A stretch of 33,267 nt of DNA from Gammaproteobacteria bacterium. Lineage in GTDB: Bacteria > Pseudomonadota > Gammaproteobacteria > Natronospirales > JAJUFS01. This document shows positions 2,184 to 6,742 of this stretch, one piece after another; within the stretch, counting starts at the first letter, position 1, and each line of letters begins with the position of its first letter. The stretch lies in NCBI GenBank assembly GCA_033720895.1, contig JAWWBS010000016.1:1-33267 (forward strand), written 5' to 3'. The notes beneath the pieces were generated by a model. It made no database searches and was not told where the DNA came from. It saw only the letters and a program-made list of their open reading frames with translations. The translations under genes were made by a program, and so were the position numbers.

Positions 2184-2235
2184 ATGCCTGCTCCCCCTGG
2201 AAGCGGTCGAGTGACTGGATGCCTGCGAACGTCCT

Positions 2236-2264
2236 TGATGAGGGCGGCGCTTGCCAATATCAAG
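2236..2264 (-). promoter_or_regulatory. candidate sigma-32 heat-shock promoter for hslVU
   Basis: On the minus strand a CTTGATA box (2264-2258) is followed after 14 bases by CCTCATCA (2243-2236). The E. coli sigma-32 consensus is CTTGAAA, a spacer of about 13-15, then CCCCATNT, so one mismatch lies in the -35 and one in the core -10. The leader to the hslV ATG would be about 45 bases. hslVU is a classic heat-shock operon, which supports the call. The assignment is by eye only. Confidence 0.45.
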
Positions 2265-2376
2265 GGCCGGTACCCGTCCAACAAGGGTAGTACAGCTCGT
2301 CTGCTGGTATCATGCCTGACGTCCACACCCGCCCGTCAGTCGGTGCCATACGACAGCAAGTACGAACGGAGACAGC

Positions 2377-3051
2377 ATGCGACGCCATGTCCCGACAGCC
2401 AGACTGATGCTTGCCTGCCTGCTGGCCTGCGGCGGCGCCGCGTTCCCCGGCCATGCCGGCGAACTGAAAATCACGCTGGTCGACCAGGACGGTGCGCCGA
2501 TCGAGCACGCCGCGGTGCTGCTGGACATGGACGGCCTGGATGCACCGCCATCCCCGGTACCGGCCGTCATGGATCAGCGGGATCGCCAGTTCCTGCCCTA
2601 CGTGCTGGCGATACGTCCGGGTGCCGAGGTCAGTTTTCCGAACTCCGACAACATCCGTCACCACGTCTACTCCTTTTCCGAGGCGCGGCCGCTCGAGCTG
2701 AAGCTCTACAGCGGCACGCCCACCGAGCCGCTGGATTTTCCCCGCGAGGGAATTGTCACGCTCGGTTGCAACATCCATGACTGGATGCTCGGCTTCATCG
2801 TGGTCAGCAGCGCCGACCGTCAGGCGATATCGGATGCAGCCGGCCAGGTGATGTTCCGCGACCTGCCGGATGGAGAGGCCCGCGTGCGCACCTGGCATCC
2901 GCGATTCGGTTCCACCGAACTGGCAGGGATGGCGATAAGCGTGCAAGGCGATGTCGAGCAGGTCCTGACCCTGGAACTCGGCCCCGAGTTGCGGCGCGAG
3001 CCGCCCGCGCTCGAGGAGCAGCGTGAAACCCGACGGAGGCGTGGTCGCTGA
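2377..3051 (+). CDS. periplasmic cupredoxin-like protein ('methylamine utilization protein' family)
   Basis: This 224-residue protein has a signal peptide (about 1-27, cleavage near GHA-GE) and a small beta-rich domain. A type-1 copper site is visible: His95/His96 in the DNIRHHVYSF segment, then Cys131, His134 and Met137 in GCNIHDWM. It is therefore predicted to be a periplasmic electron-transfer or copper-binding protein. Homologues are often labelled methylamine utilization protein, but no methylamine dehydrogenase genes are nearby, so that name should not be read as function. The C-terminus (about 205-224) is highly charged and Arg-rich. A GGAGA ribosome-binding site precedes the ATG. Its stop overlaps the ATG of the c-di-GMP gene by one base, arguing for coupled translation. 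Confidence 0.8.
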   Translation: MRRHVPTARLMLACLLACGGAAFPGHAGELKITLVDQDGAPIEHAAVLLDMDGLDAPPSPVPAVMDQRDRQFLPYVLAIRPGAEVSFPNSDNIRHHVYSFSEARPLELKLYSGTPTEPLDFPREGIVTLGCNIHDWMLGFIVVSSADRQAISDAAGQVMFRDLPDGEARVRTWHPRFGSTELAGMAISVQGDVEQVLTLELGPELRREPPALEEQRETRRRRGR

Positions 3052-5402
3052 TGTTCAAGTCCTTCCAGGCCAAGTTGACGGCCGGTCTGATCGGCCTGGT
3101 GGCGGCGTCGCTGGTGGTCAGCTTCGTCGCCGTGTCTCTGGCAACGCGAGCCAACGTGGCGGCGACCACGGCCAACGAGTTGCGCACGGCGGCCGGCGTT
3201 TTCGAGCAGTTGCTGGCCGTGCGTGGCAACCAGTTGCGCAACAGTGTCGCGGTGCTGGCGGATGACTTCGGTTTCCGCGAAGCCGTGGCGTCGGCTGATG
3301 CCGCGACCATCCGTTCGGCCTTGCTCAACACGTCCAGCCGCATCGAGGCCGACACCGGCCTGGTCCTGACGACTTCAGGCGACATCCGGGCCAGCATCGA
3401 TACCGGCCTTGCCGAGGGCATCGCCTTTCCGCATGCCGACCTGCTGGACCGCGCGGCAGAAGAAGGCAGTGCAGCGGCAATCGTCACGCTCGACGGCGAC
3501 AGCTACCAGCTGGTCGTCGCCCCGGTTCGTGCACCGCTGCGAATTGGCTGGATTGCACTTGGCTTCCGGCTGGACGACGAATTGTTGGGCTCCCTGGCCA
3601 CCCTGACGGGCGCCGAGATCAGCATTGCCAGCGAGCAGGAAATCATTGGCAGCTCGCTGGACCGCATGACGCGCGCGGCCCTTGCCGAGCGGCTTGTTGG
3701 CGGCCTGGACGCAGACACGGGCGTTCGCAACCTGCAGCTCGACACTGCTGAATTTCTCACGCTGCAGGTCATGCTGGACCAGGTCGCCGGGCCGGAACTG
3801 CACGCCATCCTGCAGCTGTCCCTGACGGCAGCACTCGCGTCCTATCGCGAGCTGGAAATCCAGTTGCTCGCGATCGCGGGCTTCGCCCTGTTCCTGGCGC
3901 TGCTGGTGGCCCTGTTCATCGCCTCCGGCGTGACCCAGCCCGTGCGCGAGCTGGTCGCCCGCGCCCAGAAGATTGCCCGCGGCGATTACTCCGTATCGCT
4001 GTCCCTGAACCGCAATGACGAGATCGGCCAGCTGAACGAGGCGTTCAATGCCATGCAGGAAGGCATTGCCGAACGCGAGGAGCGCATTGTTTTCCAGGCC
4101 CATCACGATGACCTGACGCGCCTGCCGAATCGTGTCCTGGCACAGGATCGCCTGCGCCAGGCCATCACTCGCGCCGAACGCACGGGCCGTCCTGCGGCGC
4201 TGGTCATGCTCGATCTCGACCGCTTCAAGGAAATCAATGACGCGCTCGGCCACCAGCTGGGTGACGAAGTGCTGCAGGCCGTGTCCGACCGACTGCTGGA
4301 TGCCGTGCGCGGTGTCGACACGGTTGCACGCCTGGGTGGCGACGAGTTCATGGTGGTGCTGGAAGATGTCGAACCGGAAGCCGCCATGGCGAAGGCCGAG
4401 GACGTGGTGGAAGCACTGCGCCGGCCGATGCTGATCGGCGAATCGAACCTGCACGTCATCGCGAGCGCCGGTGTCGTCCTGATTCCCGACCACGGTCGCG
4501 ACCCGGAGCAGCTCATGCGGCGCGCCGATATCGCCATGTACGACGCCAAGCAGTCGCACAATGCGACGCTCCTGTATCGCAGTGGCCGTGATGAAAGTCA
4601 CCTGATGCGCCTGCGCTTGATCGGTGACCTGCGGGTGGCGGCCACGCGTGGCCAGTTCCGGATGTTCTACCAGCCCAAGCTCGACCTGCGGCGCAACGAA
4701 ATCACGCAGGCAGAGGCCCTGATTCGCTGGGACCATCCCGAGCACGGCTTCATGCCGCCCGATCAGTTCATCACCCTGGCAGAGCAGTCTGGCAACATCG
4801 GCGTGGTAACCAACTGGGTACTGCGCGCGGCCCTGCAGCAATTGCGCCACTGGCTGGACGACGGGCTCGACCTGTCGGTGTCGATCAACATCTCCGCAAT
4901 GGATCTCGAAGACGCATCGCTGCCCGAAAGGGTCACCGAGCTGTTGCAGGAATTCGACGTGTCGGCCGAGCGCCTGGTACTGGAAGTGACGGAAAGTGCG
5001 GTCATGCGCGATGCAGAGTCCGCCATCAGGATGCTGGACAAGCTGAATGCTGCCGGCATCCAGCTGTCGATCGACGATTTCGGCACCGGCTACTCTTCGC
5101 TGGCACAGCTCAAGCGCCTGCCGGTACACGAGCTGAAGATCGACAAGTCCTTCGTGATGCAGCTCGACGCGGATTCGGAAGATGCGATCATCGTCCGCTC
5201 GACCATCGAGCTCGCACACAACATGGGATTGAGCGTGATCGCCGAAGGCGTCGAAAACGAAGCGGCCCGCCAGCTGCTGAGCGACTATGGTTGTGACCAT
5301 GCCCAGGGCTACTTGATCGCCAAGCCCTTGCCGGCGCAGAAGTTTGCCGAATGGCTGCACGACTCGACCTACCAGGTCGCCATGCGAAAGGAAGCCGAAT
5401 GA
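3051..5402 (+). CDS. membrane sensor with HAMP, GGDEF and EAL domains
   Basis: This 783-residue bifunctional c-di-GMP enzyme has TM1 at about 10-30, a periplasmic sensory region of about 240 residues (Cache-like by layout), TM2 at about 271-291, HAMP at about 292-345, GGDEF at about 350-510 and EAL at about 525-770. The catalytic GGDEF (429-433) is intact, with an RxxD inhibitory site (R420-D423) exactly five residues upstream. The EAL motif (555-557), the DDFGTGYSS loop (675-683) and the EGVE motif (732-735) are also intact. Both synthesis and hydrolysis of c-di-GMP are therefore possible; which dominates cannot be read from sequence. It sits between a cupredoxin-like gene (1-base overlap) and a DUF3034 gene (4-base overlap), so its periplasmic domain may sense a state reported by those exported partners. 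Confidence 0.93.
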   Translation: MFKSFQAKLTAGLIGLVAASLVVSFVAVSLATRANVAATTANELRTAAGVFEQLLAVRGNQLRNSVAVLADDFGFREAVASADAATIRSALLNTSSRIEADTGLVLTTSGDIRASIDTGLAEGIAFPHADLLDRAAEEGSAAAIVTLDGDSYQLVVAPVRAPLRIGWIALGFRLDDELLGSLATLTGAEISIASEQEIIGSSLDRMTRAALAERLVGGLDADTGVRNLQLDTAEFLTLQVMLDQVAGPELHAILQLSLTAALASYRELEIQLLAIAGFALFLALLVALFIASGVTQPVRELVARAQKIARGDYSVSLSLNRNDEIGQLNEAFNAMQEGIAEREERIVFQAHHDDLTRLPNRVLAQDRLRQAITRAERTGRPAALVMLDLDRFKEINDALGHQLGDEVLQAVSDRLLDAVRGVDTVARLGGDEFMVVLEDVEPEAAMAKAEDVVEALRRPMLIGESNLHVIASAGVVLIPDHGRDPEQLMRRADIAMYDAKQSHNATLLYRSGRDESHLMRLRLIGDLRVAATRGQFRMFYQPKLDLRRNEITQAEALIRWDHPEHGFMPPDQFITLAEQSGNIGVVTNWVLRAALQQLRHWLDDGLDLSVSINISAMDLEDASLPERVTELLQEFDVSAERLVLEVTESAVMRDAESAIRMLDKLNAAGIQLSIDDFGTGYSSLAQLKRLPVHELKIDKSFVMQLDADSEDAIIVRSTIELAHNMGLSVIAEGVENEAARQLLSDYGCDHAQGYLIAKPLPAQKFAEWLHDSTYQVAMRKEAE

Positions 5403-6253
5403 TGAAATGCCGAAGCCTGCTGTTGTGCCTCGCCCTGCTGCCCGGCGCAGCGACTGCCGATGATGGTCGCCTGCTGGCCACCGGCGGCATCACCTCGCTG
5501 GAAGGCAGCGCGGGTGGCGGCATCGTGCCGTGGGCGGTGATTTCCGGTTACGGCAGCGACGAGGGCAATGGCGGTACGGCGGCATTCTCATACGTCAATG
5601 TCGGCGACTACCAGGTGGACGTGATCGGCGTGAGCGCGGGATTTCGCAATCGCTTCGAGATTTCCTATGCCGAGCAGCGACTGGATCTCGGTGCGCTCGG
5701 GCTGGCATTGGCGGCACCCGATGCAACGCTGAAGAACGAAGTGCTTGGCATGAAGGCGCGGCTTCATGGCGACCTGGTCTATTCACCCGAAGGTCAGTTC
5801 GCGCTGGGCGTGCAACGCAAGTCGCTGGATGACGCGACGATTCCACAACTGCTGGCACCGGTCGACAAGAGCGGCACGGATGTCTACCTGGCCTGGAGCA
5901 AGCTATGGCTGGGAGCGGCAGGTGGTCGAAACCTGCTGGTCAATGCCACCCTGCGCTCGACCTCGGGCAACGAGCTTGGCCTGCTGGGCCATGGCGGCAA
6001 CAGCAGTGATCGCGAGATCCTGCCCGAGGTCAGTGTCGCGATGTTCCTGGACCGCAAGACGGCCATCGGCTTCGAGTACCGTGACAAGCCGGACAATATC
6101 GACGCGATCGAAGAAACCGCCTGGAAGGACGTGTTCATTGCCTGGTTCCCGAGCAAGTCGCTGGCACTGACCGCCGCCTGGGTCGACCTCGGCACCATCG
6201 GCGGCCTGCGCGAACAGACCGGCTTCTATTTTTCCGCCCAGGCGAGCTTCTGA
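5399..6253 (+). CDS. DUF3034 family protein, exported, probable outer-membrane barrel
   Basis: This protein of about 284 residues starts MMKCRSLLLCLALLPGAATA, a clear signal peptide. I place the start at the ATG overlapping the previous stop (ATGATGA); the second ATG at 5402 is nearly equivalent. The mature N-terminus has the family signature LLATGGITSLEGSAGGGIVP with WAVISGYG next. Alternating polar/hydrophobic strands, many Gly and aromatic residues and a C-terminal Phe (FYFSAQASF) suggest an outer-membrane beta-barrel. The family has no known function. The four-base overlap with the c-di-GMP gene and the following haemoglobin lipoprotein gene imply one transcription unit. Confidence 0.8.
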   Translation: MMKCRSLLLCLALLPGAATADDGRLLATGGITSLEGSAGGGIVPWAVISGYGSDEGNGGTAAFSYVNVGDYQVDVIGVSAGFRNRFEISYAEQRLDLGALGLALAAPDATLKNEVLGMKARLHGDLVYSPEGQFALGVQRKSLDDATIPQLLAPVDKSGTDVYLAWSKLWLGAAGGRNLLVNATLRSTSGNELGLLGHGGNSSDREILPEVSVAMFLDRKTAIGFEYRDKPDNIDAIEETAWKDVFIAWFPSKSLALTAAWVDLGTIGGLREQTGFYFSAQASF

Positions 6254-6289
6254 CCCCCGCCGACCATTGCGACAAGCGAGGAGTGCCCC

Positions 6290-6742
6290 ATGCAACGTCT
6301 CCTGATCCTGCTGATAGCGCCGATACTGCTGGCTGCCTGTGCAACTCCGGCGCCCACCACGGCCGAGCTGGCTGCAAAAGACGACAGCCTTTACCAGGCG
6401 CTTGGACAGCAGCAGGGCATCGACCTGCTGGCGGGCGAACTGGTGTTCCGTTTCATTTCGGATACGCGCATCGCGCACTACTTTGCCGATACGGATCTCG
6501 ACCGCCTGGAGCAGAAGATCGCCGAGCAGGTGTGCATGCTGGCGGGTGGCCCGTGCACCTACACCGGCGACGACATGCGCACGGTTCACGAGGGCATGAA
6601 CCTGACGGAAACCGACTTCAATGCGATGGTGGAAGATGCGCAGCTCGCGATGACGGCCATCAGCATTCCGGAAGCCGCGCAGAATCGCCTGCTTGCCAAG
6701 CTGGCGAAATTCCGGGGCGTGGTGCTTGGCAGGGAAGAGTAG
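6290..6742 (+). CDS. group 1 truncated haemoglobin, predicted lipoprotein
   Basis: This 150-residue protein has a lipobox LLAAC (Cys17), so it should be lipid-anchored in the envelope. From about 32 it aligns with group 1 truncated haemoglobins: SLYQALGQQQG, then GGPCTYTGDDM and the proximal haem ligand His100 in TVHEGM. Compared by eye with M. tuberculosis TrHbN, the distal Tyr(B10) falls on Val52 and the distal Gln(E11) on Ile77, giving an apolar distal pocket. Cys82 and Cys89 could form a disulfide in the periplasm. A GAGGAG ribosome-binding site lies upstream. It is the last gene of the cupredoxin / c-di-GMP / DUF3034 set and ends 3 bases from the convergent xerC stop. A ligand sensor or carrier seems likelier than an NO dioxygenase, but this is inference. 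Confidence 0.82.
   Translation: MQRLLILLIAPILLAACATPAPTTAELAAKDDSLYQALGQQQGIDLLAGELVFRFISDTRIAHYFADTDLDRLEQKIAEQVCMLAGGPCTYTGDDMRTVHEGMNLTETDFNAMVEDAQLAMTAISIPEAAQNRLLAKLAKFRGVVLGREE

Follow-up and report, generated by a model that had tools for sequence, protein, structure and literature searches.

A conserved envelope operon pairing a cupredoxin with a dCache receptor is a candidate regulator of cyclic di-GMP hydrolysis

The whole stretch of DNA analysed here (the window) comprises the 33,267 nucleotides of contig JAWWBS010000016.1 from a Gammaproteobacteria bacterium (assembly GCA_033720895.1), and carries an operon of four genes encoding a cupredoxin, a membrane receptor with dCache_3, HAMP, GGDEF and EAL domains, a DUF3034 protein and a truncated globin. 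We describe a comparative analysis suggesting that this operon specifies an envelope receptor that is gated by a metalloprotein, the cupredoxin, and controls the hydrolysis of cyclic di-GMP (c-di-GMP), a reading to which we assign a probability of roughly 0.6. The four genes are not of equal weight in the system: its hub is the pairing of cupredoxin and receptor, in which the cupredoxin is proposed to act as a periplasmic co-receptor.

Cupredoxin searches in random genome draws, followed by reading of the neighbourhoods, yielded 75 cupredoxin loci (loci are designated by L and a number). In 62 of these, no more than 1.2 kb separates the cupredoxin from a same-strand receptor with the same type of sensor, and the paired genes mostly overlap or are at most 20 bp apart. 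DUF3034 is nearby in 38 of the 75 and the globin in 37, the globin accompanying 37 of the 38 DUF3034-bearing loci; the receptor is present without DUF3034 or globin in 28. The reciprocal search, for which the receptor's periplasmic domain alone was the query, recovered 26 receptors in 274 genomes, of which 22 adjoin a cupredoxin match and one further is split by a contig end. Divergent cupredoxins scoring only E ~1e-16 still precede such receptors, among them a divergent pairing group with GGDEF-EAL receptors of about 900 amino acids (L200, L202, L203 and L207-L209); the cupredoxins of L136-L142 (about E 1e-31 and weaker), with no receptor nearby, were excluded as a different kind. No cupredoxin-receptor gene fusion was recognised in the loci read, and no search aimed at fusions was made. 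In Pseudomonas (L066, L068, L073, L077, L083, L091, L094 and L103), and likewise in L144 and L146, the cupredoxin gene is immediately preceded by an additional receptor of this type; one cupredoxin may serve two receptors in such loci. In L168, L169, L174 and L178, a cupredoxin without a receptor immediately adjoins a secreted protein of some 400-420 amino acids that resembles outer-membrane proteins, possibly forming a simpler two-gene unit with it.

The pairing persists when the output of the receptor changes. Most cupredoxin-adjoining receptors are GGDEF-EAL proteins, and receptors beside the cupredoxin also end in a class III cyclase (L125, L128, L129, L153, L170), a histidine kinase (L127, L197) or a Ser/Thr kinase (L019, L132, L134, L135, L195, with L133 about 1.8 kb off). 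In a tree of the sensor domains, which has moderate support and several long branches, the principal group of cyclases is nested within the GGDEF-EAL receptors, as is one histidine kinase (Shimodaira-Hasegawa-like approximate likelihood ratio test, 85 for the containing group), and the kinases fall in one group. Cupredoxin and sensor domain remain constant despite the change of output, and this constancy argues for the cupredoxin as partner of the receptor. Pairing of cupredoxins with receptors of several signalling types seems to be previously undescribed. By extension, cupredoxins might be redox-active co-receptors for an entire class of dCache receptors, with c-di-GMP, cyclic mononucleotide, histidine kinase and Ser/Thr kinase outputs, the version with globin and DUF3034 being an envelope nitric oxide (NO)/redox sensor by which Pseudomonas, Xanthomonas and numerous marine bacteria drive the hydrolysis of c-di-GMP; we advance this broader proposal tentatively, thinking it somewhat more apt to fail than to hold.

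Pfam matches to the window receptor include dCache_3 (2.5e-9; 37.5 bits against a cut-off of 25.7), HAMP, GGDEF (1e-48) and EAL (1e-75). AlphaFold2 predicts a dCache fold for the sensor domain (predicted local distance difference test, pLDDT, 94), and the Foldseek matches of the predicted domain include the LuxQ periplasmic domain 3c38, among the top, DctB and Mlp24. Across 128 distinct receptors the EAL residues E555, N613, E645, E648, D675, D676, K696 and E732 are invariant and Q752 is kept in 127, while the canonical GGDEF motif is absent from 90 and present in 38. The invariance of the EAL residues, together with the decay of GGDEF, indicates that the conserved output of the family is c-di-GMP hydrolysis, and the family is best read from its residues as one of phosphodiesterases. 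The window copy, in which the canonical GGDEF and RxxD motifs are intact, could be bifunctional. In L015, L096 and L107 the receptor gene (in L015 also the DUF3034 gene) is broken by stops or frameshifts, reflecting decay or assembly error.

The window cupredoxin has no cupredoxin family match in the Pfam search, in which the other three products (receptor, DUF3034 protein and globin) scored above cut-off. It is assigned as a type-1 copper protein because its ligand set, H95, C131, H134 and M137, does not vary among 25 diverse relatives, and because it weakly matches the solved blue copper protein 5fc9 (E 0.003), the closest solved sequence to the copper domain. The copper-site loop is short (C131-x2-H134-x2-M137). 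5fc9 differs in that an Arg is aligned at the Met ligand of the cupredoxin family, and we know of no receptor operon of which it is a member.

Conservation of the complete four-gene arrangement was read outward from DUF3034. Scanning of genome contigs turned up at least 569 relatives, and the 80 best were read; these loci were picked by DUF3034 similarity and so inform on order, not frequency. In all comparison loci the open reading frames were called mechanically, with approximate gene starts. The order cupredoxin-receptor-DUF3034-globin, on the same strand, is retained in 73 of the 80, in hosts that include Pseudomonas, Xanthomonas, Pseudoxanthomonas, Rhodanobacter, Marinobacter, Idiomarinaceae and Pseudoalteromonas. 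Pseudoalteromonas distincta ATCC 700518 and Pseudomonas poae DSM 14936, for instance, have all four genes. Among 274 evenly drawn genomes of the same class, PF11231 was found in 14. The flanking genes differ among the loci, no other neighbour being repeated beyond about five genera, and the retention of the four genes amid varied flanks is more in keeping with a functional unit than with old synteny; chance synteny is ruled out on the same ground.

An earlier note on this DNA had mentioned similar neighbourhoods in other gammaproteobacteria and called for a search for co-occurrence across genomes, which has now found them, for example in Pseudomonas and Xanthomonas; the refuting case that it had named, a gene set conserved nowhere beyond this genome, clearly does not apply. 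Its structural claims also agree with our results: the type-1 copper site; the membrane GGDEF/EAL enzyme with full catalytic motifs and a periplasmic sensor, on which Pfam, motif reading and alignment concur; the lipid-anchored truncated haemoglobin, supported by lipobox, profile and haem histidine; the DUF3034 barrel candidate, by family match, predicted strands and fold matches; and the overlaps and spacing of the four genes. Its interpretation of the four genes as an envelope-signalling module feeding c-di-GMP held in part. Wide conservation, intact copper and haem sites and the periplasmic sensor favour such a module, but its members are not equal, and of the c-di-GMP activities it is the EAL side that is constrained family-wide, GGDEF being degenerate in most relatives though canonical in the window.

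The window globin matches Bac_globin (4e-11) and carries the lipobox LAAC with lipidation Cys C17. Among 116 distinct relatives the haem histidine is kept in all, and Cys82 and Cys89 in 115 each. The distal pocket is apolar in the window (V52/L73/I77), and essentially all 116 have an aliphatic residue or Phe where a solved group-1 globin has TyrB10, GlnE7 and GlnE11. The protein thus lacks the TyrB10 and the Gln at E7/E11 of an HbN-type NO-dioxygenase or an O2-carrying group-1 truncated haemoglobin, and was rejected as either. An apolar distal pocket is expected to stabilise O2 poorly, making NO or carbon monoxide (CO), rather than O2, the better candidate ligands. Elsewhere, an exported relative of the globin is encoded just upstream of a 1416-amino-acid GGDEF-EAL protein whose N-terminus appears haemerythrin-like by eye (L211:16-5024, minus strand), and a 602-amino-acid protein (L214:5857-7665, plus strand) includes a stretch that resembles a globin and is related to the one in the operon.

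The DUF3034 protein matches PF11231 strongly (1e-95; 320 bits against a cut-off of 25). Its AlphaFold2 model, of moderate confidence (pLDDT 79.9), has 12 strands and a C-terminal Phe, and Foldseek returned FapF, OmpG, NanC and VhGalP. The protein is accordingly predicted to be a 12-stranded outer-membrane beta-barrel; it shares barrel topology and the terminal Phe with these proteins, but only about 10% identity and template modelling scores of 0.4-0.5. The most conserved segment, glycine-rich and N-terminal (E35-A46), lies largely in a low-confidence part of the model, and residues 35-46 may form a plug or a partner site. In loci without DUF3034, the cupredoxin often adjoins another secreted protein of 290-450 amino acids with an outer-membrane-like C-terminus.

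Ten regulator patterns were tested upstream of the operon family; that of sigma-28 alone stood out clearly, and it was examined again with Markov controls as well as controls for spacer and strand. Of 146 upstream regions, 35 have a sigma-28 site (at least 12 of 16 consensus matches), whereas shuffles gave 1.65 on average and 3 at most; the sites are specific to the 11-base spacer and to the correct strand (35 vs 2). The non-redundant sites number 23, chiefly in Pseudomonas and Xanthomonas, in addition to L021 and L171 with one mismatch, suggesting from sequence that the operon carries a sigma-28 promoter in some flagellated hosts. RpoE- and RpoN-like patterns are slightly enriched (16 vs 7 and 4 vs 0.9, respectively), and the FNR/ANR, DNR-like, CueR, NsrR, Fur and CopR patterns showed no enrichment upstream of the operon family. 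The window promoter region holds no sigma-28 site, and no FliA was found over the curated cut-off in the source genome; the sigma-28 link is thus inapplicable to the source organism.

Several known systems share parts of this arrangement. In LuxP-LuxQ of Vibrio, a periplasmic partner reads a signal and gates a membrane receptor. The likeness extends to fold, as the LuxQ match above indicates, but LuxP is of a sugar-binding type and LuxQ is a hybrid kinase, whereas the operon has a copper protein as partner and, usually, c-di-GMP as output. NspS-MbaA of Vibrio cholerae consists of a periplasmic partner and a membrane GGDEF-EAL enzyme encoded together; NspS, however, is a polyamine-binding solute-binding protein, and that system has no copper protein, barrel or globin. 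YfiBNR/TpbB of Pseudomonas resembles the operon in the three-part control of a HAMP-containing c-di-GMP enzyme by a periplasmic protein, an outer-membrane lipoprotein and an inner-membrane enzyme, but YfiN is a cyclase, and the operon has a cupredoxin in the partner's place and a globin for its lipoprotein. Identity with YfiBNR was rejected: the receptor scores 168.9 bits against 325 at the curated YfiN/DgcN cut-off, and the partners match other Pfam families. HbN has the Bac_globin fold and proximal His of the operon globin, which differs in being an exported lipoprotein with the Cys82/Cys89 pair and in lacking TyrB10/GlnE7/GlnE11. Finally, PdeH/YhjH of E. coli and BifA of P. putida are EAL phosphodiesterases under the flagellar sigma factor FliA, suggesting a motility role; they have no cupredoxin partner. 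A paper on BifA and FliA is among the references of PMC6498148. The present system is likely a receptor gated by a periplasmic partner, here a copper protein, with hydrolysis of c-di-GMP as its usual output.

We suggest the following mechanism. As the genomic pairing strongly implies, the cupredoxin would serve the dCache sensor as a dedicated partner in the periplasm, in the manner of LuxP-LuxQ and NspS-MbaA. Its metal state (Cu(I), Cu(II), apo or NO-reacted) may govern binding to the sensor, and HAMP, by the logic of the domains, would relay the change to the cytoplasm. There the conserved output would very probably be c-di-GMP hydrolysis by EAL, GGDEF being regulatory or lost in most lineages, although the GGDEF domain of the window copy may remain active. 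The DUF3034 barrel and the lipoprotein globin could work on the outer-membrane side as an accessory, supplying or conditioning the input, for which a haem ligand such as NO is the most plausible candidate; the physical signal itself would be copper redox state, NO or another. In flagellated hosts, sigma-28 expression in part of the family would have the module lower c-di-GMP in motile cells, and in the source organism, which has no FliA over cut-off, the module must presumably have another target.

Certain observations weigh against this mechanism. dCache domains usually bind small ligands directly. No receptor lies near 12 of the 75 cupredoxins, and three of the 26 receptors (L204-L206) have no adjoining cupredoxin. 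Some receptor-less cupredoxins adjoin an outer-membrane-like protein, or DUF3034 and globin only, indicating that the cupredoxin has a further role where no receptor is encoded nearby. Additionally, with its canonical GGDEF motif, the net effect of the window enzyme could be synthesis.

These loci bear on an alternative in which the cupredoxin, DUF3034 protein and globin form an envelope unit handling redox, copper or NO (an electron relay or detoxification), the receptor being co-transcribed only to fit lifestyle to the unit's activity and its dCache domain binding an unrelated small ligand. Cupredoxin, DUF3034 and globin do occur without the receptor in L022, L173 and L196, DUF3034 and globin alone in a few loci, and receptor-less cupredoxins beside secreted barrel-like proteins. 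We nevertheless judge this alternative unlikely, since the tie of cupredoxin to receptor is more constant than the ties to DUF3034 and globin, as the 28 loci with a receptor but neither of these attest, and survives a complete change of output. A further possibility, which is a specific version of the co-receptor mechanism and not its opposite, is that the envelope globin binds NO (or CO) and, via the cupredoxin, activates the phosphodiesterase, leading to dispersal or motility. The invariant haem His, the aliphatic or Phe residues at B10, E7 and E11 and the conserved EAL output all accord with it, and phosphodiesterase activation is an established route of NO-induced dispersal; yet 38 of the 75 cupredoxin loci have no globin, sites for NO regulators are not enriched upstream, and the ligand preference is deduced from residues, making this version doubtful in its specific form. 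A copper module, in which copper enters through the barrel and is bound by the cupredoxin, while the receptor reports on the copper load of the periplasm and the globin is a side partner, draws on the invariant type-1 ligands and on the secreted, barrel-like protein that adjoins the cupredoxin in many loci lacking DUF3034, but is very improbable given that CueR- and CopR-type sites are not enriched, that type-1 sites usually move electrons rather than sense metal load, and that copper supply leaves the globin in 37 of 38 DUF3034 loci unexplained.

No functional description of the operon was found in the literature accessible to us, in line with the earlier note, and searches on DUF3034/PF11231, on methylamine utilisation with GGDEF, on cupredoxins with diguanylate cyclases and on FliA with globins brought up no such account, while that on cupredoxins with the EAL domain returned no paper; a mutant known only by a locus tag may exist. 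Most c-di-GMP enzymes have no known signal, and the operon supplies one with a candidate metal-site partner whose input is directly testable, in carrier genera that are environmentally and agriculturally important. If the co-receptor mechanism is true, metalloproteins join the known co-receptors, the operon becomes a candidate for an envelope sensor by which NO or redox state triggers dispersal and motility, and DUF3034 and the exported Cys-pair truncated globins gain functional hypotheses.

The positions of the operon and its features are collected in Table 1. The cupredoxin and receptor genes overlap by one base (TGATG) and the receptor and DUF3034 genes by four (ATGA), and 36 bases separate DUF3034 from the globin gene. 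The operon is flanked by divergent hslVU on one side and convergent xerC on the other.

Table 1. Features of the four-gene operon, in window positions
Feature	Position	Strand	Description
hslV/cupredoxin gap	2184..2376		divergent intergenic promoter region
Cupredoxin gene (P0001)	2377..3051	+	secreted, 224 amino acids, C-terminal CarboxypepD_reg-like domain
Copper ligands	H95 2659-2661; C131 2767-2769; H134 2776-2778; M137 2785-2787	+	from sequence
Receptor gene (P0002)	3051..5402	+	dCache_3-HAMP-GGDEF-EAL membrane protein, 783 amino acids, c-di-GMP enzyme
dCache sensor domain, periplasmic	3156..3854	+	residues 36-268
HAMP relay	3915..4067	+	residues 289-339; PF00672 1.8e-15
GGDEF domain	4098..4562	+	residues 350-504; GGDEF 429-433, RxxD 420-423
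EAL phosphodiesterase domain	4626..5327	+	residues 526-759
DUF3034 gene (P0003)	5399..6253	+	284 amino acids, PF11231
Globin gene (P0004)	6290..6742	+	lipoprotein group-1 truncated globin, 150 amino acids
Globin residues	His100 (proximal) 6587-6589; Cys82 6533-6535; Cys89 6554-6556	+	from sequence

The source contig (C16) belongs to an assembly of 2.2 Mb, which contains 35 GGDEF and 3 PilZ matches. For a genome of this size, without FliA over the curated cut-off, the 35 GGDEF matches represent dense c-di-GMP signalling in an apparently non-flagellated organism.

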